A program made the position numbers and the translations under genes. The notes beneath the pieces are model-generated. The model worked only from the letters and a program-made list of their open reading frames with translations. It did no database searches and was not told the DNA's origin. Shown one piece after another: positions 8,276-59,112 of a DNA stretch of 64,000 nucleotides. How positions within the stretch are numbered: position 1 is the first letter of the stretch; the number at the start of each line of letters is the position of its first letter. This DNA is from Hyaloperonospora brassicae (Eukaryota; Oomycota; Peronosporomycetes; Peronosporales; Peronosporaceae), in NCBI GenBank assembly GCA_947650285.1, contig CANTFL010000225.1, positions 34,541 through 98,540 of the forward strand, given 5' to 3'.

Positions 8276-10289
8276 ACTGCACGTCGGTCCATTAAGACAC
8301 TGCGTCCTATCCAGCTCTTTACTATCCGCAAGTGGCGCTCCGACACGTTCGCTTCAGCATTCCTTGACCTTTTCTCGTTCGAGTTCGTCTGCATGTCGTC
8401 TGCTTGACGACCCCGGAGTTGTTGGAGCTGCTGCAATGCTGCGTACGCTGCTAGACAATAACGCAACTGTTCTTGTCGCTCCACAACAAGTCGACTCGAG
8501 CATCAATGCTCGTTCGCAGATCGCTGGACGGATGCTCGAAAGATGAAATGGCACGCCCGAGCGCGAACAGATTCACAGCGGTCGGTTCGAAGAACAACTT
8601 GCAGCATGTAAAACAGGTCATCAACGGCGTCACACGCGACTTCTATTCACACGCCGCTATGGACACTGCTTTGTGCCTCGCACGTATCTCCATGCATCAA
8701 ATGCAGCTCAAACATCGCCACTGTCCTTTCAAACAGCCCTCAGCCACAGCAAACTCGTGTGGCAATCGCAGCCTGAACAATTGGCCAGCACGTATCACGT
8801 GGTTGTCCTCCCGTATGCTATCCAACGTCTATTGTTTCTCCATGAGGATCGATGCCCTCGATCATGCCACTGCTTTCATCCTAGTGACCTTCATCGTCGT
8901 CGTCTACGTCTCCATATTCGTCGACGTTTGATCCTCCCGCAATCGCTGGCCACTTGTTTGTAGCACTGTCTGCGCCACCTCGTCGAACTTGCACTCAGAA
9001 GCGTCTGGTCGCATCCGAGCTGCCTCATTCGTCCTGCACCTTGCACCAACTTGTCCTTCGTGAGGTTTTGGTGCAAGTGTTATACCAGCGGATGCATCTT
9101 GTAGTAGCTTCATGTCTGACCCTCGCGAGCGCGCTTCGTCAAAACTGGCATACGTCTCCTTCTCCAGCAGCGAAGACTTTTCCACGGACAACGTCATCCT
9201 CCAAGCCTCCTCGACGATCATCCAGCAGCTGCGCCCTTTTCGGCCATCAAAGTACATCGCGCCAGCAACTACAAAGCCGGGCTGCTTATGAACACGATCC
9301 GCTGCTCCGTTATTTGTCGCACCGCTAGAAACGCACCAGTGTCGACCAGACTCTGTGCTTTCTTGTCCAAGGCGAACAAAACCGGCTTCTGCCATGGCGT
9401 CGGTTCGCGGATCGATCGGACCAGGAACAATCACCTCCTAGCAGTGCGTCACTTGCAAGATCTAGTCAACCGCTTTTCCGTTTTTGCTTCGTAGTGACGG
9501 CTCCTTCGGCTCTTGTTGCGCCACTGACAGCGGAAGCAAACGATGATTGTCGTTCGTTCCTGAAAATCCGATCGTATTGCCTCCTCCAGCAAGATTCCAC
9601 GCTGTCCGGGGACAATTGTTGCGGATACTGCTGTGTATAGGTTGGAAACACGCAGGTGTTCGGGTAAACGTTTATTGATTCCATGCAGTAGTGGTAGACT
9701 CGACACAACGTCTCGAACTGTCGAATGTCGGTAAGACAGATGTGCCACACATTGCACAGAGCCATTCGGTCATTGCCATCCGGTCATTGCCATTTAATCC
9801 TTGCTCGATACTAGTAAAAAGAGCCATCCATCGTACTGATGTTCCTGCTCCGAGATGTCCAAGCTGATGAGCACAGGGAGAGGTATGCGTTGGACACAGG
9901 CACTTACTTCGGTTGACTGTACTGCGTCGCTCGCACATTGTACAAAGTCAGCTGGAAGTATCACACGTTATGCTTCCTACAACACATGCGACACAGAGTG
10001 TCACGTAACTTTGTTTGGAATACAGTGCTCGACTCGAGTCTAGAAACGCTAACGCGAATGCTTCACTGCAGATGCGGGATCTCCGAATACAACTTCTGCG
10101 TCTACGGTCGTCTATCAGCACCTTGTAGTATGTAGATGGCAGCGTGAGAACGTACATTGGAATCAACCACTAGCAGCCAGACTCGACTAATGCAGTCATC
10201 ACGCCGTTTTCTTGATCAAGTGTTTGCTGACTCGCGCAACAGTGTGCGTTGACTATCATGATATAATGATCACTTTTATCGAGAAGCAA
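8276..10289. other. Unrecognised degenerate region left of the Gypsy element
   Basis: Both strands have frames of 60-176 aa (longest 8904-9434 minus, 8473-8931 plus, 9449-9757 minus). Minus-strand pieces such as FVAGAMYFDG suggest a START-like lipid-binding domain of the kind common in oomycetes, but the match is too weak to assert. Frequent stops and frame switches indicate decayed coding DNA. From about 9840 the sequence becomes AT-richer and holds nothing I recognise. Confidence 0.3.
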
Positions 10290-10294
10290 GTGCT
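10290..10294 (+). repeat. Target-site duplication GTGCT (left)
   Basis: The five bases GTGCT immediately precede the 5' LTR and are repeated immediately after the 3' LTR (18235-18239). A 5-bp duplication is usual for Ty3/Gypsy integrase, so both ends belong to one insertion event. Confidence 0.9.
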
Positions 10295-10688
10295 TGTAAC
10301 GGGGCAGCCCGTTACATGAAAATGTCACTTTAAAGGAAAGTGACAACAAAGAATATTAAGTGAATATTCCTTGAACAATATCACCGATAATGGTGATATT
10401 GGTGAAGCGACCAAAGGGTCTGCTCATTGGTTGATATCGTGATGATATCAACCCACCCTTTGCCGCAGAACGCGCGCAATGAGTGGTGACGAGACGTCAC
10501 CATACACTCAGTTATATTAACATAATTAAGTCAGGTTAAACAGAGAGACAGTAGCAAAAAGACTTAATTATATTAATACAACAGTTTTAATTTCTCCTTA
10601 TCCTACGCTTCCTCATTCGCCTCGTGTACGTCTGTCGGGGCACCCGAAACCCTTGCTTTAAGTTCACGCAAGAATGTGCCCCGTTACA
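10295..10688 (+). repeat. 5' LTR (394 bp)
   Basis: It begins TGTAACGGGG and ends CCGTTACA (TG...CA). The first ~210 bp are a chain of stem-loops: GTAACGGG/CCCGTTAC (10296-10315), GTCACTTT/AAAGTGAC, GAATATT/AATATTC, AATATCACC/GGTGATATT (10377-10400), GGTTGATATC/GATATCAACC (10429-10453) and GGTGACG/CGTCACC (10485-10501). A longer pair, ATAATTAAGTC/GACTTAATTAT, follows. The last ~110 bp are pyrimidine-rich and probably hold the start of transcription. Confidence 0.95.
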
Positions 10689-10690
10689 CC

Positions 10691-10700
10691 TGGTAGCACT
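10691..10700 (+). other. Primer-binding site
   Basis: TGGTAGCA starts two bases after the 5' LTR and complements the 3' end of initiator methionine tRNA (…TGCTACCA). The match ends after about 8-9 bases, shorter than usual, which may reflect mutation. Confidence 0.6.
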
Positions 10701-10732
10701 TTGTAGTCCTTCAAAGGACCACAACATCCAAT

Positions 10733-11887
10733 ATGAGCATGTTGGATGATGAAGAGACCTTTCACGCCACGCGTGAAGGGTTTACCCATTTGAGTGACAT
10801 CGAATGGGGTGCGGTAGAACGAATGAGCTCTACCGTAGACGAGTTCGCCATTAGCGCCATGTTAAGGTCTCTAGATAGAGACCAACAACATGCCGCTATA
10901 GCCAAGTTCATCCAAAGTGAATTTGTCGCCGAAAGGGAGAAAGTAGCATTGCTTCACCAGCAAGGCTCTCAACAGGCCAAGCACTTGAGAGAACTTGGAG
11001 CTCAACAGACAGAGCTGTTGAGACAGCAGCAATTCCATGCTGCTGTGGGCGGGACGGCACATGCGCATCGTCCCGAGGTCATGAAGGTTGACATCTCCAA
11101 GTACAGTGAAGTCCCGGAGGACTCCCTGTTACTATGGTTTGTCGAACTCGACAGAGCCTTAAGGGCTCGTCGCGTCGAAGATGAGCAAATGAAACTCACA
11201 TTTGCTCAGACCCACTTGGCAGGGCGTGCCAAAACTTGGTCTCTGGGGCTCGAGAGTAGCGACCCAAATGTGTTTAGGTCGCTAGATGACTTCAAGTCCC
11301 GGCTCAGACAAACGTTTGAGCCGCCACGAGATGAGTTCAGGGCTCCTTCTGAGCTCCTGAAACTCAAGCAGGGTAAGCGTGATGTGCACGCTTACGCACA
11401 ACATATACGACTCCTAGCGAGTAGTATAACGGCTAACCCAGTTCATGAACACACGTTGATTACGGTGTTCATGCAAGGGCTCTCAGAAGGGCCCGTCAGG
11501 AGCCACCTGTTGCGCCTTGAGCTGAATACGCTTGAAGAAGCGATATCAGCCGCGGAACAGGAAGACTTTAGCATGAGACAGGCTCATGCTAGCTCAAACT
11601 CTTACCGTCCACCGAGACGACAAGAGATCGGAGGTCCAGAACCAATGAACCTCTGCTATGTTGAGAGCGATAGATCTCGCTCTTCGAACAACAAGCGATT
11701 GTAGAGGTGCAATCGCCGTCAGAAGTTAGGGCACTACGCATACGAGTGTAGTGCTCCGCGCCCAGTACCAAACAGTACTGAGCGAAATGGACAACCATTT
11801 GCCAGAAAGGCCAATGGGCGTGGATCCAGCGCTGTTGCGAAGCCGCAACAGCGAGACGGACCATCAAAAAATGGTCGGGGTTTGTAG
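10733..11887 (+). pseudogene. gag: gag (capsid/nucleocapsid), interrupted before the zinc knuckle
   Basis: The 323-aa frame 10733-11704 carries a retrotransposon gag region: a central Trp-containing segment (LLLWFVELDRALRA, then AGRAKTWSLGL) and a capsid-like SELLKLKQGKRDVHAYAQHIR, typical of Ty3/Gypsy gag. It ends at a TAG (11702-11704). In the same frame the next residues form a CCHC zinc knuckle, Cys-x2-[Arg]-x4-His-x4-Cys (11708-11749), in which the second Cys (expected TGT) is CGT. A further in-frame TAG lies near 11885. Both the stop and the Cys loss would abolish a normal nucleocapsid. The eroded relative at 50.7 kb still has an intact knuckle. Confidence 0.85.
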
Positions 11888-11954
11888 GGGCGGAGCGCCC
11901 TAATGATCCAGCAACCTCAAGAGAATTCGCAAATCTCTCTCGAAAAAAGTTGGT

Positions 11955-12986
11955 CCAGATACACAATCATTGTGTGTCTCTGCACCTGGTGATGACGTTT
12001 CGCTCATCATCTTGAAGTTGAAAGCGAAAAATGATTTGTCGCTTCGTGCCCTAGTAGACTGTGGGACGTCGAACAACTTTGTTCGACGCCAGTCACTAGA
12101 GGGTCGTAGGCTCAAGTTCGATGAGCGCGACTTTCTTATCACGAGGATGACGGTGCGCCTTGCAACAGGCGCATCAATTTCCGGTAAGAAACGTGTAGTA
12201 TGAATCCACTACACGTTGGAGGGCGAACAGTACGATGATGACTTCCTCGTACTGGATCTGGATGACAAATTTGATAATATCCTGGGATTAACATGGCTCA
12301 GAAAGTACGATCCAAGGGTGAGCTGGCAGCATCGATCCGTGAGGATGCCTGCCACTTGTTCATCAGATTGCCATCTGATGAACATCTTGGAGCGTCCACA
12401 AGCGTGTGGATGTTCTGCGGGTGAGTGAGATGGCCTCACTTGCGGTTCGGCCGTTAGCACGACTGCACAAGATCACAGTGTAGTTGATTACTACACTGTG
12501 GAGCAAGCTCCCGGTGGCTGTACAGAAGCACAGGCTGCGCCGAAGGTCCACCACTCGAATACGTCTAGTGGACCGGGACATGGATGCATGCCTAGCGGGC
12601 AGCATATTAGACAGAAGAAATCTGTTTCCCCCAAAGGTCAACATGGAAATCCTAGGTCGACTGGAGGGTCGACCGTAGAGGATCGGTCCCTGACTGTGGT
12701 TGCACAGCCAAAGTCAGAAGACGTCGAGGAAATAAGTCCCCACGTACTTGAGGAAGGAATTCCTCAAGAGTCACTTGCTGAAGGATTAGGCCTTCAGCAA
12801 TATGTGAAAAGAAGTTCCCAGGAAGTAACCGAGACGTTGAACGTCTTGGTCAATGACGGATCAAGTATGGGCGCTTATACGCTTGATCTGATTGTGCCTC
12901 CGAAGTTAACTTCGGAGATAATTCAACTGCCAACGCTACAACCGAAACGGTTGTTGCGTGATCTGCGTAGTGGCAAAGTCAAGTAG
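11955..12986 (+). pseudogene. pol: pol: aspartic protease and linker
   Basis: From about 11955 pol runs in a frame different from gag (shifted by one), with a run of six A at 11943-11948 near the change. The protease active site reads ALVDCGTSNNF (Asp-Cys/Ser-Gly-Thr), followed by the flap and ILGLTWLRKY, all in one frame but interrupted by TGA at 12201 and TGA at 12426. The linker then runs open from 12429 to a TAG at 12984. The frame is continuous with reverse transcriptase downstream. The active-site codons lie inside a hairpin (arms CGTCGAACA and TGTTCGACG). Confidence 0.8.
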
Positions 12987-13955
12987 ATCTGCATACTCGT
13001 CACAGAGGATGAGTATGTGGCCGATATTCGGTCGGCCACAGTATTTGCTGAGAACGAACGGGTTCTCAGCAGCTCATCGATGGACGAAAGTGTCCTCGAT
13101 GAGAAGACTCGGATTAAGCGATACACGTCTCAATCCTGGGAGTCACTTCAGGCAAATCCTTTGTACAAGGATTTGATCGAATTTAGGGATGTGTTCCCTG
13201 AATCCGTACCGTGCGAGTTGCCTAAAGACAAAGGCACTCGACACGAGATAGAGCTCAGACCGGGCTCGAAGTACTGTGTCATGAAGCAGTGGCCACTGCC
13301 TCGTGAACAAGTACTAGCGATCGACAAGTTCTTTGCCGATCGCTTAGCAGCGGGCCATGTGAGGAAATCAACATCCCCTCACAGCTCTCCGACCTTCTGT
13401 GTGCGAAAGGCCACAGGAGTGTGGAGGATAGTGCACGCATTCAACAAATTGAACGCTGCAACGGTACCGGCTCAGACGCCGATACCGAGGAAGGACGTAA
13501 TCATAGATGGTATGTCAAAGAGAACCATCTTTTCGTCCATGGATCTGATGGATGGATTCTATCAGATCCTCATGCGTGAACGGTACATCCCGTTCACAGC
13601 AGTGAGTACCCCCAGCGGGATGCTGTGGGAGTGGCTAGTTATGCCTCAGGGGCTGAGCAATGCCCCTGCAACATTCAGCAGATGTGTCACAAATCTGTTG
13701 AGACCGGTGCGAGACTTCGCACCGAGTTACTTCGACGATGTGTTCGTCCATAGCCGGGATATGGACGAAAAGACGGACGTTGAAGTTCACAGAACTCACG
13801 TTCGTCAGGTTCTTCAAATTATGCGCAAACATAAGTTGTACGCCAACCTTAAGAAGTGTATATTCGTGGCTAACGAAATACCACTTCTTGGGTGCATCGT
13901 GGGTAAACACGGCGTACGCCCTGATCCCGCAAAGATCACGGCGATCACCGACTGA
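12987..13955 (+). pseudogene. pol: pol: reverse transcriptase
   Basis: This frame continues the protease frame after the TAG at 12984. It shows the RT fingers/palm order: RHEIELRPGSKYCVMKQWPL, SPHSSPTFCVRKATGVWRI, then SSMDLMDGFYQI (first catalytic Asp), MPQGLSNAPATFSRCV, and YFDDVFVHS (catalytic Asp pair intact). It ends with LLGCIVGKHGVRPDPAKI before a TGA at 13953, where related elements have Trp. Apart from flanking stops the RT core looks complete. Confidence 0.9.
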
Positions 13956-14640
13956 ACCGTGCCGTTCGATGTCAAGGGACTAAGGAAGTTCCTTGGTCTT
14001 GCGACGTACTTGCACAAGTACTCGCGCAACTACGCCGAGATGACTGTTCATCTTTCTTGCTTGCTCAAGAAAAATGTCAAGTGGCCTTAGAACGCTGAGT
14101 GCCAGCGTTCCTTTGAAGGTATCAAGCGGAGCTTGATGCAATCGCCGATCTTGGCGATTGCAGATCAGGACAGACCATTTCATGTGGTCTGTGACGCCAG
14201 CGATTTTGCAATCGGCTGTGCGTTAATGCAGTTCGATGCAGATGGCGCGGAGCGCGTCATCTGTTATCAGTCGCGTCAGCTGCAAGCAGCTGAGCGTAAT
14301 TACCCAGTGCATAACAAGGAACTCCTTGCCATGGAATACGCACTGGCTAAGTTTCGCGTCTATCTCTTGGGAGATAGACCGTTTGTTGTCTACACGGACC
14401 ATGCGTCATTACGCACGGCCGTAAACAGCCCACACCTCTCGCAGAAAATGGCGAGGTGGCTGTCTTTCTACGCGGAGTACAACTTCTCCGTGGAGTATAA
14501 CACTAGAACGACTCAATGTCGTCGCTGATGCGCTATCGCGACGGCCCGATTTCGAGCTGGACGCACAAATCAATAGTGAGGATAAGCCCACTATTGCGAC
14601 ACTGTCAGTCAGTGTCCCGTCGTCAAGTTTACTTGACGAC
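13956..14640 (+). pseudogene. pol: pol: RNase H
   Basis: This continues the RT frame through LRKFLGLATYLHKYSRNYAE, then a TAG near 14087 replacing a Trp in the WP-W-NAEC context. RNase H residues follow: VVCDASDFAIG, NKELLAMEYAL and VYTDHASLRT give the first three acids, and after a frameshift near 14505 LNVVADALSRRP gives the last. Except for the stop and the frameshift, all catalytic positions are retained. Confidence 0.88.
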
Positions 14641-15935
14641 GTACGAAAGGCATACGCGGAAGATCAGGATCTTCTGCGATTGATGGATCATCTGGTGAAT
14701 CCATCCAGTAAATCCATGAGGGATTTACCAGCTTTGTACTGATCCTCATTGGATCGGTATAGTACACGCAACGGATTGCTGTACTATACAGCTGTTGCCG
14801 GCGACACGCCTCGTGTCGTCGTACCTGCTCATCATGATTTGCGCTTACGCATCATGTATGAGTGTCACGATGCCCCAACAGGTGGCCATCGTGGTATAGA
14901 AAAGACTTACCTCACGGTAAGTCGTGACTTTTACTGGCCACGCCAGTATCAGCTTGTCCGCAAGTACATACGTGCTTGCGAGGTTTGTCAACGGGTGAAG
15001 CCTAGTCCTTCATCCCGTGCGCCATTGCAGCCTCTGCCTGTTCCGACAGAGTGCTGCCAGTCCGTGCCAATGGACTTCGTCTTCGGTTTTAGAGAAAACG
15101 CTCACAAGAATACTGGTATTCTTGTCTTTATTGACAGGTTCAGCAAGATGGTGCATCTTGCTGCTGTCCCTGAGTCGATCAAGGCTCAAGGTTGTGCTCG
15201 TGTCTTTCTAGACACGGTCTTTAGACTCCACGGGTTACCCCGTGAACTCGTATCCGACTGTGACCCTCGGTTCACGGCGGCATTCTGGCAAACCGTGTTC
15301 CGCACATTGGGAACACAATTAAAGATGTCTACTTCTGACCATCTCGAAACAGATGATCAAACGGACGTGCGAACGGTGTCCTCGAAGAGATCCTTCGAGG
15401 ATATGTCCACTCGGTTTCGAGTTGGAGCGAATTCCTACCCATGATGGAATTTGCCATCAATAATTCGGTGCATGCTTCCACACATCACAAACCGTTTTAC
15501 GTGAATGGCCTACGCCATCCACGTGTGCCCACCCTTCTAGAGTGTGACTCTTGGATAAGGGGGGAGGGACTCGCTCGAGCAAAAACAGCTTTGGCTCTTG
15601 CTCATCACGTGTCGACGCTAACGTCGTCACGTATGATGCTGATATCGATCAAGTCGACATCGATGATGACGACGATGCTGGTATATTCAGCATCGTCAAC
15701 GATTATACCAGCGAGGAAGAAGACAACCTCGCTGAAGAAGAGAGCAATCTCTTAGCAGTGCGCACGAAGCGCACTGAAAGACAAAACCTAGAGTCAGCAG
15801 AGAACTTCCTGCTTACTCAAGAGGCGGTAGTCCATTTCGTTCAGGACTCCATCGCAAATGCGGTAGACCGTCAGAAACGGAACGCAGACAAGAATGGAAG
15901 AGCAAATGTTCTTTCATTTAAGTTAACGACCTAGT
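14641..15935 (+). pseudogene. pol: pol: integrase
   Basis: The N-terminal zinc domain is at 14836-14990 (two His, then CEVC). The catalytic core shows MDFVFGF (first Asp, about 15069) and LVSDCDPRF (second Asp, about 15251). The third residue, Glu in the usual DGQTERVN context, is hit by a single-base deletion near 15365: reading changes frame exactly at that codon. A TGA lies near 14740. Downstream the frame moves twice more (EFAINNSVHAST from 15441; a strongly acidic Asp/Glu stretch at 15640-15740; then DRQKRNADKNGR). The integrase could not act. Confidence 0.9.
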
Positions 15936-16735
15936 ACTACTGTCTTCGGTAAATTACCTGGACATGAAGTCACTAGTGTCGGCAGTAGTAAGCTACTGCC
16001 GAAGTACATTGGGCCATTTCGAGTATTGCATCGCAAGGGCAATGCATACACACTCGAATTGCCACGTAAGATTCGCACGCATCCTACGTTTTACGTGGGG
16101 AGGCTCAGGCCGTACTGTCAGTACGAGCCTTCTTCTTCCGATGAAGATAGCCCCCACGTTCAAGAACATCCATCAAGTTCTTGCGTTCGCGCTTCAGACG
16201 ATCCGTCTGGTCGCGCAGATATGATACCTCGGAACTTAACCGAGATATCTCCCCGCGAGCTGTCGCCAGCACGCCGAATATGGAGTGGACATCCCGTTCG
16301 ACCTGAAGCTGCGCTGTGGCGTAATCGGCGCGATCCCTCGACCGATCAGCCTCGTGATCCTTGCGTTTCTTCCGCACGGTATCAGTCAAAGCGTAGCGCC
16401 GGTCGCGCTCGTGCTTCAAGTCATCGCGCAATTCATCGATTGCGCGATCCATCTCGTAAGGGTCGAGATGGTGAACCGAATTATCTGGAGGATGTCTTTC
16501 CTCCTACACCTCATCCTTTGGTGGATGCTCACGGTGATCAACGCTTTCTAGTGGAGCGTATCTTGAACAACCGTGACGATTCAGGATCAAGGACGAGCTA
16601 CCTCGTCCAGTGGCGGGGGTATCCACCCTCTTGAAACAGCTGGGAGCCCCGCTCTCAGCTGTTGATGGACGTTGAAGGTCTTGTCCGCCAGTATAACGAG
16701 ACTCATCCGATTGGTCCTCGGGTTCATCGTTAAAC
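15936..16735 (+). pseudogene. pol: pol C-terminus: integrase tail and chromodomain
   Basis: KGNAYTLELPRKIRTHPTFYVGRLRPY (split here across its middle) is the typical integrase C-terminal barrel before a chromodomain. The chromodomain lies at about 16530-16730: FLVERILNNRDD, SYLVQWRGYPPS, then a TGA replacing the expected Trp, then NSWEPRSQLL and LVRQYNETHP. Chromodomains of chromoviruses bind modified histones and steer insertion into heterochromatin. Between them is a 330-bp Arg/Ser/Pro-rich spacer that is better coding on the other strand (16105-16452). Confidence 0.88.
16105..16452 (-). CDS. Antisense coiled-coil ORF inside the pol spacer
   Basis: The minus-strand frame of 115 aa is strikingly coiled-coil-like: regular Leu/Ile/Val spacing amid Glu, Asp, Lys and Arg (for example EISRLSSEVSYLRDQTDRL). 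The plus-strand frame is compositionally poor. The central part (about 16260-16420) has fewer short inverted repeats than the rest of the element, which fits an acquired insert. No start context or transcript can be judged; it could still be a chance frame in Arg-rich DNA. Confidence 0.3.
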   Translation of the reverse strand: MDRAIDELRDDLKHERDRRYALTDTVRKKRKDHEADRSRDRADYATAQLQVERDVHSIFGVLATARGEISRLSSEVSYLRDQTDRLKRERKNLMDVLERGGYLHRKKKARTDSTA

Positions 16736-16743
16736 ACGCGCTT

Positions 16744-17666
16744 TTAAGGCTTGTAGACGGATTGCAAGTTTGCAATCGCGTCACGCATCTCAGCCGAGAT
16801 GTGTGCCCTTCCCCAGGGCGAATTTAGGGAGTACACATCCCTATGTGCACGCTGCGAGTTGTCGATACAACTCGCACAAGGGTCTCCCCATGTGAGGCAA
16901 GGAATGTCTGCCTCACTCGACAAACAGTGCAACCGGTACCTGGCACCGGTTGGCGTTCGCTTTTCGAACCTGAGGCGTGTCGCCTCAGGTTTCTTGAGCC
17001 ACCCTTCTCGTCCAAAATTCTTTAGGTTTTGGACGAACGCGTTCCACGCAGCCAAAAGCGAGGCTTTGTCACGTTATTGGTTGCTGTTGTACCATCGATG
17101 TCTAAGGAAGACATCGAGATAAAGTCTTCTTCAGCGCGAAAGTTGCTCGCGCTGGGACTCAAGCCGTGAAGCTCAGTCGCATCGAATAAGGGCATTCGAT
17201 GGTGTTGGCTTGTCTCGTGAGACAAGCCATTGATGAGCCGTTCGGGCAAACGCCACGGCTTCAGCTCATCACGCTTCACGGTGGTACCTTTGTCGGTACC
17301 ACGGTTGTCAGTATGACGATGGGTTGAACCATCGTCAGGTCGCTCGTGCGAAGGAGCACGAGCTAATTTCGGTGATGAGCAAACATACTCATCATCAGAT
17401 TCGTCATCACTGCCGAACAGACTGTGTTGCAACTCACTAGTCCGTTCGTTCGGCAGTGGCCTTGGCAAACACTGAGGCGTCGTCGGTGAACGAGACGCCT
17501 CTGCAGCATTGCCCGAGTCAGACACGTCTGACTCGCCAGAGTAGATGACCTCAATGTCGGGGTCATCATGCGCACGCGGTGCTGTACCGCTTGCACCTGA
17601 AGCACCTCTTGCTGCAGACGAAGAACGAGCAGCAGACGACGAATCGTCTGCCGCAGAAGCTGGCAC
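16744..17666 (-). pseudogene. Antisense ORF between chromodomain and 3' LTR
   Basis: A minus-strand frame starts at ATG 17666 and runs to 17022; homologous-looking sequence continues after one frameshift (near 17050) from 17055 to 16744, for about 300 aa in total. The N-terminal half is Ser/Ala/Asp-rich and acidic, probably disordered. The C-terminal ~100 residues look folded: AWNAFVQNLKNFG, GWLKKPEA, YRLHCLSSE, then a Cys cluster C-x8-C-x6-C-x2-C followed by His, ending HISAEMRDAIANLQ. I do not recognise the family; a zinc-binding protein is an inference. It starts 175 bp from the 3' LTR and would need an antisense promoter there. Confidence 0.5.
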
Positions 17667-17803
17667 AGGAACAGACTCTGTGTGCCTTGAGTCACCCGCA
17701 TAGACATGTTAACTATGCGAGGACAGGTTGAGTTATGAACGGAACTGACCCAACAAGTGCTCCCTGTCCCAATGGCGCATAACGGGTGGCCGCCATAATT
17801 TTC

Positions 17804-17840
17804 GATAGTCACACAGTGACTATCAGTTAAGGGGGAGTGA
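17804..17840 (+). other. Polypurine tract preceded by a hairpin
   Basis: AAGGGGGAG at 17829-17837 lies three bases before the 3' LTR and is the likely plus-strand primer. Immediately upstream is a perfect hairpin, GATAGTCAC/GTGACTATC with a 3-nt loop (17804-17824). Confidence 0.8.
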
Positions 17841-18234
17841 TGTGACGGGGCAGCCCGTTACATGGAAGTGTCACTTTAAAAGAAAGTGACAACAAAGAAT
17901 ATTAAGTGAATATTCTTTGAACAATATCACCAATAGTGGTGATATTGGTGAAGCGACCAAAGGGTCTGCTCATTGGTTGATATCTTGATGATATCAACCC
18001 ACCCTTTGCCGCAGAACGCGCGCAATGAGTGGTGACGAGACGTCACTATACACTCAGTTATATTAACATAATTAATTCAGGTTAAACAGAGAGACAGTAG
18101 CAAAAAGACTCAATTATATTAATACAACAGTTTTAATTTCTCCTTATCCTACGCTTCCTCATTCGCCTCGTGTACGTCTGTCGGGGCACCCGAAACCCTT
18201 GCTTTAAGTTCACGCAAGGGTGTGCCCCGTTACA
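17841..18234 (+). repeat. 3' LTR (394 bp)
   Basis: It has the same length as the 5' LTR with about 13 substitutions, mostly transitions. The stem-loop chain is preserved; several differences fall in loops. Confidence 0.95.
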
Positions 18235-18239
18235 GTGCT
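18235..18239 (+). repeat. Target-site duplication GTGCT (right)
   Basis: This is identical to 10290-10294. Confidence 0.9.
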
Positions 18240-56358: not shown

Positions 56359-57508
56359 AGCGATCACCACTCCACCAGAAATATATAATAGGGGCTGTGT
56401 GAGCATTCACGGCAAAACAGGCATTGTATAGTATAATTTGAAGCAGGTGTGTGCTCGCGCGGATAGGAAACAACATTGATATATTTAGATGTGATTCATA
56501 TGCGCATATTGTTTTCTTTTCAATATTGTCATATTTGTTACTTTTTGTAGTTTGCGTTATCGTTCAGGCACTAAATATCTAGATTAGATTGTCGAATTTG
56601 ATTGCGTTTTCGCGCATGTAGGCTTCGTTTGTTGCGTCAGAGAAAATATTTTGTGATGTGGCAATAAGGCACGAACTTGTAACGGTAGTCCATTTGTCTT
56701 GTGTGAATGTAAAGCAAGCAAGGATCAAATGTTTTTACTCTTTTCTTACTGATTGTGTACTTTTTATTTGTTTCATAATAGCGCGAAAGCATTTTAATTC
56801 TATGATTCAGTAATTGGTGACCGATCTGAGAAGCCGAGTAGAAAAACACTAGCGCTGGGACCGGAAGATCCGTGATCTGTACTTGGACACTAATATCATA
56901 TAACGTCGAGGAGTGTTGATTGCATGAAAGCTTCCATCATGTCGGGATACAGCGGGTCGTTTGCGTACGTGGATGAACCTCAACGTATATTTCTAATTTG
57001 TTTATCGAAGGAATATATAAGTCGTTCGCGCTTCGTAGGCTCGCCAAATGCTCCACGGAGAAGCTGTATACCTATCTCGAGTACATCATCTGATGAGGTG
57101 GCAAAAGAAACCCCAGTTCCGGATGGTTCATCGGGCCTCTTACCAAGTTCAACTCAACGGCCAGTGTCAAACACTAATTCCACAGAATGTTGATCACAAG
57201 CGAAACATGCCTCATGGCTCAACGTAAAATTGAGCATGGAACCGGCGGCAACGGACCATTGGCCGGGCGTACTATCTATTTAAACAGCTGCTGGACAAAA
57301 GATTACAATCATCGCTTCATGGACGAACAAACGTCATTTCGGAAGATGAATTACTTACATAAGGGTAAATGCAATAAAAATCGCCCGAGCGGCAAATCTA
57401 CCCCCTCCCCCGTGTTTAGAGTATCCGTTGTTCTTGTTTTTCTACCAGACGTGAACGGGGTTCAACGTCGACGGGTCGTCGGCAATAGGTGTGGTACACA
57501 CAAGGGGT
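56359..57508. other. AT-rich end of the block
   Basis: Short frames only, nothing recognised. Confidence 0.4.
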
Positions 57509-57620
57509 GGGATCCCTTTAAAAAATATTTTAAAAAAAAAATTAATTTTTTTGGGGGGGGGTTTTTTTTAATTATTTTTTGAGATTTTTTTTTATTTGTT
57601 TTTTTTTATAAAAGGGGGGG

Positions 57621-57672
<52 letters not shown>

Positions 57673-57739
57673 TTTTTTTTTTTTTTTTAACAAAAAAAAA
57701 ACCCGGCCTTTTTGGGGTGTGTTGGTTTTGGAGGTAAGT

Positions 57740-57801
<62 letters not shown>

Positions 57802-57939
57802 TTTGGTTCTTTTTCTTTGGGAACGTTTTTTTTTTTTTTTTTTTTTTTTTTTTTGTTTGTTTTTTTTTTTTTCTCTTTTTTTTTGGGGGGGGGGTGGTGG
57901 TGGGGTGGGTGTGGGTTTAAAGATTGTTAGTAGAGTTGT

Positions 57940-57971
<32 letters not shown>
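57509..57971. repeat. Poly-T / poly-G low-complexity block, probable assembly artefact
   Basis: It consists almost only of T runs (one of 60 bases, 57741-57800) mixed with A and G runs. Such a mixture of homopolymers is typical of low-quality consensus. The poly-Phe and poly-Lys frames here (such as 57592-58272 minus) are meaningless. Confidence 0.85.
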
Positions 57972-59112
57972 GGTAAAAGACGGCTATCGTCATCGACGCT
58001 AGAAGTCGCGTATGAAGTGATGAGCTAGGAGACACCCTGCGTATAGTGTTGGAAAACGTGCGCAGCCTACCACGCAGCACCATGGTGTATGCGATGGTGC
58101 TGCGTGATCTGATATTCTCGGGCAACCGTTTACTGCTGCCCGGGCATGTCACTTGCCAAGGTCCGAATCCCAGCTTTCCTGGCATGCCCTGATCGGATAT
58201 ACACGCCACAACTACGATTCGGTGCCCACTTGACCACATGATGACGGCTGAGACTTGCAACACAACACACATGAAATAAATACTGCTGAGCCCAGCTCAG
58301 TACATATCGTACGTGGCAAGCCAAGCAATTCACCGTTGTGGAAAATGGCGACGAGAAGTAGGATAGGCTGTAGCTTACGCTCTGTCGTGCCTCTCGCGCA
58401 CTTGTGTGACAGCAGCTCCATCTCATTGGAAATTATCGAAGTGCAGCACATACTTTGCCGATTTTTTCCGAACATCGTATACCGAAGGAAATGTGTTCAT
58501 CACTCGACCGAAGGATCGTGGCGAGCACCGCGCAACCTATTCTACAAATTGGACGTGTTTTTAGGACCGCATTGATGACGGCAATCCGTAGAAGTCGAGA
58601 AACATCGACGGGTTTACCACCGATCAACTCAAGTACACGATCGTGGAACACCATTGCGCTCGTCAATACAAGGCCAGGTCCGAGGCGGGCGCCTGTACTA
58701 GTGCTTTCTACGATGCTTTATGGGTGTAAATGAAGAAAGGGGTAAGAAACTAAGCTCTTCTACATCGACCAATCGACAACTATCAGCAATTTGGGCCATC
58801 GATAAGACCGGCGCTTGCAGTATGGAGCGCTCCTGCATCACAACTGCTTCGAGATTTTGCATGGACATTATTGACAACAAACAGGTCATCAGCAACAGGT
58901 GCGTTTGTATGGGCTGTGCCGGTCATGTCACAAAGTCGAAGCGTTTGTCGGACGCAGATACGATACCACTTACCGTCTTACGCGGACAGAACGTACTAAC
59001 ACACAAAAACGATCGACATGTGTTGCGAATTCGGACCGACAAACGCGCGTCAATGCTTCGCATCCGTCACGTGGTTCGATCTGGTGTGGCGCACGCCATC
59101 GACATCTCCCTC
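57972..59112. other. Moderately GC-rich region upstream of eEFSec remnant, unrecognised
   Basis: Both strands have frames of 77-217 aa. Minus-strand 58433-58666 (VFHDRVLELIGGKPVDVSRL) and plus-strand 58899-59100 look natural but match no family I know. Base composition resembles the eEFSec remnant and RU-A rather than the AT-rich block. Confidence 0.35.

Follow-up and report, generated by a model that had tools for sequence, protein, structure and literature searches.

The window, a 64,000-nucleotide stretch of an oomycete (water-mould) genome, contains at positions 10295..18234 one retrotransposon, which is a decayed Ty3/Gypsy LTR copy of a family hereafter called family A. Its two 394-bp LTRs (5′ LTR, 10295..10688; 3′ LTR, 17841..18234; both on the plus strand) are 96.7% identical across 394 bp, and the element is bordered by the target-site duplication GTGCT on both sides (10290..10294 on the left, 18235..18239 on the right). 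Pfam matches on the plus strand follow one another in the order gag, then reverse transcriptase (RT), RNase H and integrase: a gag open frame (10733..11704; Retrotrans_gag PF03732 and Ty3_capsid PF19259), an RT frame (13017..13955; RVT_1 PF00078), an RNase H frame (14133..14528; PF17917 and PF17919), an integrase frame (14749..15444; PF17921 and PF00665) and the C-terminal end of the integrase (16026..16634) with a partial chromodomain PF00385. The latter match, with 26.9 bits, barely above the cut-off of 25.1, and 29 of 53 positions matched, points to the chromovirus branch. The original prediction of a single retrotransposon at this location was right.

The minus strand carries an antisense gene (16564..17812) that is broken in the window copy and open over 415 codons in another copy, L007, from which its coordinates were mapped by offset, the low end being approximate. 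Between this gene and the 3′ LTR, there is a purine-rich tract on the plus strand (17829..17840), which, judging by its sequence, is probably the polypurine tract.

Hairpin arrays in family A and its sister families

Inverted repeats in the element were counted as non-overlapping pairs of perfect arms with a loop of at most 15 nt, 20 dinucleotide shuffles serving as a control. With arms of at least 7 bp, the whole of 10295..18234 forms an array of 108 such hairpins (shuffle mean 6.5, maximum 12). The counts were 141 for arms of at least 6 bp (24.4, maximum 33), 73 for at least 8 bp (1.45, maximum 4), 44 for at least 9 bp (0.3, maximum 1) and 28 for at least 10 bp (0.1, maximum 1). The nine hairpins quoted in the original prediction were all found, correctly placed and with exactly complementary arms. 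Hairpins with arms of at least 8 bp number 6 to 16 in each of the eight 1-kb bins of 10001-18000 and 0 to 2 in each of the remaining 56 bins. The flank 18235-64000 has 1.3 hairpins per kb compared to 13.6 per kb within the element; as predicted, the LINE and the flanks are without hairpins at the element's density, the flank still being slightly above its shuffles (59 inverted repeats vs 36.6 over 5 shuffles, maximum 45). Part of this excess is homopolymer sequence at 57.5-58.0 kb, for which reason the signal in bin 57001-58000 was rejected as an array. The counts in the element thus exceed those of both shuffles and flanks, equality with either of which had been named in advance as evidence against the array. 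Four bins outside the element (42001, 43001, 48001 and 50001) are enriched in short hairpins with 5-bp arms and a span of 12-18, at 12-14 per kb compared to about 6.

The hairpins traverse the LTR, gag, pol and the 3′ antisense region, as had been claimed, with one part of the LTR left out: the 5′ LTR has six hairpins in 10295-10513 and none with arms of at least 7 bp in 10514-10694. The first 219 bp, where the LTR hairpins crowd, are the putative U3, and the hairpin-free part is the putative R-U5. The predicted spacing of 25-40 bp is too narrow for the decayed window copy, whose mean is wider (141 hairpins with arms of at least 6 bp over 7,940 bp); in a young family A copy, 30-40 bp between neighbouring hairpins is common. 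Regular periodicity was considered and rejected, as the gaps between hairpins varied no less than expected by chance in each of the five stretches analysed. In RT-centred copies, 28 of the 29 others have 70-75 hairpins (the remaining one has 60) vs 54 in the window copy, so that younger copies hold more hairpins than the decayed one, the loss being seen in one copy only.

Two sister Gypsy families of the same genome, B and C, also hold hairpin arrays, of sizes different from that of family A, an addition to what had been predicted; one of them has much smaller hairpins. The outer span peaks at 13-14 nt in family B and at 23-24 nt in family A (window) and is broader in family C, of which 1 kb was read; stems are mostly 7-11 bp in family A and about 5 bp in family B. 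Family B contains 81 short hairpins vs 19.9 in codon-preserving shuffles (maximum 33) and family C 14 vs 3.6 (maximum 10), with 300 shuffles each. A scan with arms of at least 7 bp made family B appear hairpin-free, which was ruled out when shorter arms revealed its own array. Within family A, the median span of 23-24 nt is identical in pol, the antisense-gene region and U3. Position counts over 41 family B hairpins gave no strong sequence motif; in family A, motif inspection covered 19 tetraloops only. No array was found in one distant Gypsy element, one Copia element and the LINE, the few other elements sampled in this genome. No relative was detected with the RT protein among phages and viral_contigs or with a 12-sequence RT alignment in genome_contigs and viral_contigs, and among the papers listed for the open PMC set, none described an element of this kind.

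Pairing of both strands and its possible origin

In codon-preserving shuffles (200 per coding part, arms of at least 7 bp counted), the hairpins of every coding part are exceeded by none: gag has 14 vs a mean of 1.23 (maximum 4), RT 13 vs 0.98 (maximum 5), RNase H 4 vs 0.39 (maximum 2), integrase 10 vs 0.86 (maximum 4) and the chromo region 5 vs 0.98 (maximum 4), the excess being about tenfold in the first four. The proposal that synonymous sites carry the hairpins is upheld. The folding energy of the sense strand is likewise far under that of codon-preserving shuffles in the five coding parts (z from -5.3 to -11.0).

If selection acted on the fold of the sense RNA alone, in the manner of genome-scale ordered RNA structure or of dispersed packaging hairpins bound by Gag, it would account for this energy, for compensatory changes and for the scarcity of hairpins in the putative R-U5, the would-be mRNA leader. 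However, the antisense strand folds equally well (z from -7 to -12), 58 hairpins are more stable in sense and 51 in antisense (p=0.17), and pairing at loops of at least 30 nt is at the background level, leaving short-range hairpins only. Furthermore, mismatches in the stems of the family A and B sets show no consistent excess of G.T over A.C, although some sets lean to G.T (18 vs 12 in copy L003, 14 vs 10 in L007, 10 vs 6 in the window copy, 10 vs 5 in two family B copies), and in family B perfect short hairpins number 45 vs 6.0 while those with one G.T number only 11 vs 9.4. Since G.T is not consistently above A.C and both strands fold alike, the pattern does not resemble that of ordinary selection for a sense-RNA fold, an explanation we consider improbable, and the structured genomic RNA originally suggested is not supported in its usual sense.

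Fixed differences between subfamilies were compared with those at slid partners. Among them, there are nine Watson-Crick double changes vs 0-1 and 16 one-sided changes vs 29-41; starting from the hairpins of the other subfamily, the numbers are 6 vs 0-1 and 14 vs 25-42, respectively. Most of this compensation affected single pairs in succession, and sister copies show the intermediate states. Variants that break hairpins make up 24/183 of shared, 36/138 of two-copy and 80/371 of single variants compared to 976/3000 random changes. At third positions, shared and single variants differ modestly in how they fall on arms and loops (odds ratio 1.97, p=0.03), and calling the hairpins on the very copies compared favours apparent conservation.

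The main rival explanation is a mutational one, in which the growing strand often snaps back during synthesis by the element's own RT, one arm then serving as template for the other (template switching with quasi-palindrome correction). The hairpin size of a family would reflect the reach of its RT, and protein selection would do no more than remove harmful events. This mutational origin agrees with the strict Watson-Crick pairing, the strand symmetry, the lack of an obvious motif in family B hairpins, the presence of hairpins in pol, the antisense-gene region and U3 alike, the hairpin-free state of the other kinds of element sampled in this host and the over-representation of gains among shared variants (16/183 vs 106/3000 random changes); according to PMC8794818, hairpins in rRNA genes can be both generated and preserved by template switching. 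Under such copying, though, compensated pairs should equal restored ones, yet across 53 copies a compensated state segregates at only 1 of 670 pairs while breaking variants are depleted. Further points against it are the mostly single-pair compensation between subfamilies with its intermediates, the absence of any double change between two family B copies 97.4% identical, and the over-representation of spacers of 6-16 nt between hairpins, significant in four of the five stretches, which copying does not predict. Template-switch correction, one of the original suggestions, thus stands as a possibility and not as the best fit, and we regard it as rather unlikely.

Under a third explanation, evasion of small RNAs, any stretch as long as an siRNA would pair with itself, and hairpin size would follow the small-RNA length of the host. 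Its logic is strand-symmetric, and the family A span mode of 23-24 nt is near the 25/26 nt given for Phytophthora transposon small RNAs in PMC3804510. But family B has hairpins of 13-14 nt, and such a difference between two families of the same genome speaks against a size set by the host. Moreover, 25-mers folding at -3 kcal/mol or below make up 59% of family A, 64% of family B, 42% of codon-shuffled A and 37% of the LINE, and these values argue against special tuning to 25 nt in family A. This explanation is highly improbable.

We lean, by a little, towards selection for strict Watson-Crick pairing of both strands as what maintains the hairpin arrays across the clade, each at the size of its family. 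Genomic RNA and complement would each fold locally, the complement being minus-strand cDNA or antisense RNA, the latter counted because the element carries an antisense gene, and hairpin size may be fitted to one of the element's own proteins, for example Gag nucleocapsid or RT. This selected pairing is supported by the excess over dinucleotide and codon-preserving shuffles, the double changes and stepwise compensation between subfamilies, the fewer pair-breaking changes among shared variants, the arrays in families B and C, the equal folding of the strands, the richer arrays of other copies and the constant span along the element. Against it weigh the excess of hairpin gains among shared variants, which also fits copying bias, the modest arm/loop contrast, the mismatch sets leaning to G.T and the hairpin-free putative R-U5, as well as the fact that, to our knowledge, no known selected function requires both strands in this way. 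The likeliest benefit, as a weak and rather doubtful suggestion, would be that complementary strands are slower to anneal and so to form the long duplexes usable by host RNA silencing. It is an even call whether the entire genome of every family, from its sense genes to the antisense gene and U3, consists of serial, strictly Watson-Crick hairpins whose size is particular to that family (about 23 nt in A, 13-14 nt in B), a second, sequence-independent information layer on both strands with a ruler set by the element's machinery.

Significance and comparison with known systems

If selected pairing is the case, the coding sequence of an autonomous retroelement can be subject throughout to a nucleic-acid constraint of fixed size, visible on both strands and surviving protein evolution, which differs in size between sister families. 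A genome-wide constraint on sequence of this kind would be new. Within a single genome, families A, B and C can be set directly against hairpin-free Gypsy and Copia elements as regards the effects of RT, Gag and RNA silencing on retroelement sequence. Compensatory substitution alone is no proof of RNA-level structure, and comparing G.T with A.C helps to distinguish such cases.

Genome-scale ordered RNA structure of RNA viruses is a genome-wide excess of folding over shuffles, coding sequence included, and the window element likewise folds below its shuffles in coding sequence. It differs in having short-range hairpins only, in the likeness of both strands, in a hairpin size that varies by family and in that G.T is not consistently tolerated, as G.U is in RNA-strand stems of those viruses, three sets leaning to G.T. 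With the dispersed packaging-signal stem-loops of single-stranded RNA viruses (PMC6281560), it has in common many stem-loops along the genome; here they are far denser, and position counts in family B gave no recognition motif. The rRNA-gene template-switch hairpins (PMC8794818) share strict Watson-Crick arms and compensatory changes, whereas the present hairpins are pervasive in coding sequence, have a family-specific size and include few segregating compensated pairs. The plant Retand Gypsy elements share an antisense ORF with the window element and are described in the abstract of PMC11963269 as a non-chromovirus plant lineage, unlike it. There are also the chromovirus-like Ty3/Gypsy elements, with which the LTRs, the 5-bp target duplication, gag, RT, RNase H, integrase and the partial chromodomain are in common, the window element differing from them in its serial hairpins throughout and in the antisense gene ahead of the 3′ LTR.

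The element and its hairpins in the window

Judged by its LTRs, target duplication and gene order, the element at 10295-18234 on contig 91 of the 100.6-Mb genome is a Ty3/Gypsy LTR retrotransposon. It has two LTRs of 394 bp each, 96.7% identical to one another, is flanked on both sides by the target duplication GTGCT and contains gag, RT, RNase H, integrase and a partial chromodomain in this order; as the reading frames are broken, it is a decayed copy. Among the 120 listed of 1405 RT relatives, those with an organism name are oomycetes, namely Peronospora matthiolae (85% identity), Pythium oligandrum (82%) and many Phytophthora, with the only exception of a Nitrospira MAG fragment (68%), which is probably eukaryotic contamination. 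The high identity of the P. oligandrum protein, found though this genus is distant from the downy mildews, possibly reflects horizontal transfer or contamination. In its gene content, it does not stand out from ordinary Gypsy elements.

The original prediction described the element as consisting almost wholly of short hairpins (perfect inverted repeats), coding sequence included. All nine hairpins quoted there are present, and the excess itself was borne out by two kinds of shuffles, with inverted repeats from ~6-fold (arms of at least 6 bp) to more than 200-fold (at least 10 bp) above dinucleotide shuffles, and hairpins about tenfold above codon-preserving shuffles in gag, RT, RNase H and integrase, with a smaller, fivefold excess in the chromo region. 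The excess tracks the borders of the element. The flank at 18235-64000 is slightly above its own shuffles (59 vs. 36.6 inverted repeats), partly because of homopolymers. Long homopolymer runs at 57510-57970, mostly of T, mimic inverted repeats in simple scans and are possibly an assembly fault. Within the LTR, the first 219 bp contain 6 hairpins with arms of at least 7 bp and the 5′ half is full of them, while none with such arms were found in the 3′ half (10514-10688, putative R-U5).

Hairpin size in family A and its sister families

The window copy belongs to family A and has 54 hairpins (arms of at least 7 bp) per 3.9 kb centred on the RT, with 70-75 in 28 of the 29 other RT-centred loci and 60 in the remaining one. 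About half of the sequence of young copies lies inside hairpins (47-52% in five stretches, arms of 6 bp counted). Loops are enriched up to ~24 nt with a peak at 4-5 nt (22 vs. 0.5), and pairing at loops of at least 30 nt is at the background level only. The stems exploit synonymous freedom, with 55 of 66 coding hairpins in the two phases which pair third positions with first or second ones. In copy L003 (5′ part of the element), the gag start codon lies within a hairpin with a 10-bp stem. The median outer span is 23-24 nt alike in pol, the antisense-gene region and U3, where the mean arms are 8.6, 8.3 and 9.5 bp, respectively.

All family comparisons were drawn from one genome. Family B, represented by two copies, L069 (G000:C12:47000-50000) and L070 (G000:C787:125800-127800), shares 56% protein identity with family A over 890 residues. 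It appeared to be a clean negative control at arms of at least 7 bp, which was ruled out by short-window folding. The outer span of its inverted repeats in the pol frame has a sharp maximum at 13-14 nt (42 and 39 vs. 8.5 and 10.3 with arms of at least 4 bp, 20 and 21 vs. 1.8 and 2.2 with at least 5 bp). The 1000-codon open frame contains 81 short hairpins (arms of at least 5 bp, span 12-18 nt) vs. 19.9 expected (maximum 33 in 300 codon-preserving shuffles) and no excess of long ones (1 vs. 2.0 in codon-preserving shuffles). Unlike in family A, the coding phases are used evenly in family B (26, 24 and 25). Family C, 67% identical to A and 63% to B at the protein level, is represented by one 1-kb piece of one copy, L079 (G000:C14:91500-92500), with 14 hairpins of mixed size (arms of at least 6 bp, span 15-30 nt) vs. 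3.6 (maximum 10 of 300). No hairpin arrays were found in a distant Gypsy element (1 kb; 25-27% protein identity), a Copia element (1 kb) or the LINE. Because the spans of A and B differ and that of A is uniform across regions, the size of the hairpins seems to be characteristic of each family rather than a by-product of coding limits.

Evolution of the hairpins and the strands that fold

Two family A subfamilies (45 vs. 4 copies) are fixed for different states at 230 of 1296 gag sites. Hairpin pairs of the first group show 9 double changes from Watson-Crick to Watson-Crick, where slid partners give 0-1, and changes on one side only number 16 vs. 29-41; the second group gives 6 vs. 0-1 and 14 vs. 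25-42. Examples are TAGCATGAG/CTCATGCTA vs. TAGTGTGAG/CTCACACTA, which when read in frame replaces M by V and A by T, and CACAGTGTAGT/ACTACACTGTG vs. CACAATGTAGA/ACTACATTGTG, with intermediates visible in sister copies. In 53 young copies, hairpin-breaking variants make up 24/183 of those in at least three copies, 36/138 of those in two and 80/371 singletons, with 976/3000 among random changes. Variants making or extending hairpins amount to 16/183, 4/138, 15/371 and 106/3000, respectively, some of which may be retained ancestral states since alleles were polarised by frequency. Shared third-position variants occupy 20/412 sites in arms, 22/120 in loops and 78/691 elsewhere, a count biased towards conservation of arms as these same copies served to call the hairpins; the contrast between shared and singleton variants is modest (odds ratio 1.97, p = 0.03).

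Were selection for folding acting on the sense RNA alone, one would expect far greater tolerance of G.T than of A.C mismatches. At the stricter setting, 14 young copies have 6-8 A.C and 6-7 G.T interior mismatches each, at sites largely common between copies. A.C vs. G.T counts are 17 vs. 11, 11 vs. 10 and 16 vs. 10 in the subfamily comparison, 11 vs. 7 among fixed one-sided changes, 65 vs. 42 among all non-pairing states (13 vs. 10 in at least three copies) and 35 vs. 30 in one-mismatch windows of copy L022. Sets leaning to G.T are the one-mismatch sets of L003 (12 vs. 18) and L007 (10 vs. 14), the two family B copies (5 vs. 10) and the window copy (6 vs. 10; 6 vs. 7 at the stricter setting). 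G.T accounts for 14 of 33 pooled sites, which are few; against a 75% share, itself our assumption, this gives p = 7e-5. Perfect short hairpins of family B number 45 vs. 6.0, those with one G.T 11 vs. 9.4 and with one A.C 7 vs. 7.6. Both strands fold alike (z from -5.3 to -11.0 for sense, -7.0 to -12.3 for antisense), with 58 hairpins more stable in sense and 51 in antisense (p = 0.17). We somewhat favor the reading that strict Watson-Crick self-complementarity of both strands is kept by selection. Its strongest rival, template switching by a clade-specific RT, seems rather unlikely to us: it would account together for the strictness, the strand symmetry and the family-specific reach, and template-switch hairpins have been described for rRNA genes (PMC8794818), but frequent unbiased copying from arm to arm predicts many compensated pairs, and only 1 of 670 segregates in the 53 copies.

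The antisense gene and known systems

Between pol and the 3′ LTR there is a 415-codon gene antisense to the element (L007:1924-3171), broken in the window copy (~16564-17812, minus strand). The 415-aa protein from L007 has no Pfam match and 25 database relatives with 29-86% identity, the closest named one from Hyaloperonospora brassicae (86% identity, with 60% of the query covered); others include an entry of H. arabidopsidis with the label Core-binding domain protein (48%) and one of P. matthiolae (38%). As the element carries this gene, its RNAs of both senses may come into contact, and their annealing would be slowed by local hairpins. Phytophthora 25/26-nt small RNAs are described in PMC3804510 as made mainly from transposons, so that avoiding duplex RNA could pay. 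If selection keeps both strands folding, its purpose might thus be to hinder the sense-antisense duplex, which we suggest only tentatively. The idea that hairpins are sized to match siRNAs is not supported, as the sizes of A and B differ within one host.

No account of such a hairpin-array element was found in the open literature, and we rate the architecture as categorically new. Genome-scale ordered RNA structure is among the nearest known ideas, and the hairpin arrays differ from it in how far wobble pairs are tolerated, in the range of pairing and in a size specific to each family. Dispersed packaging signals, as outlined in PMC6281560, are likewise among the nearest, and differ from the arrays in the same three respects.
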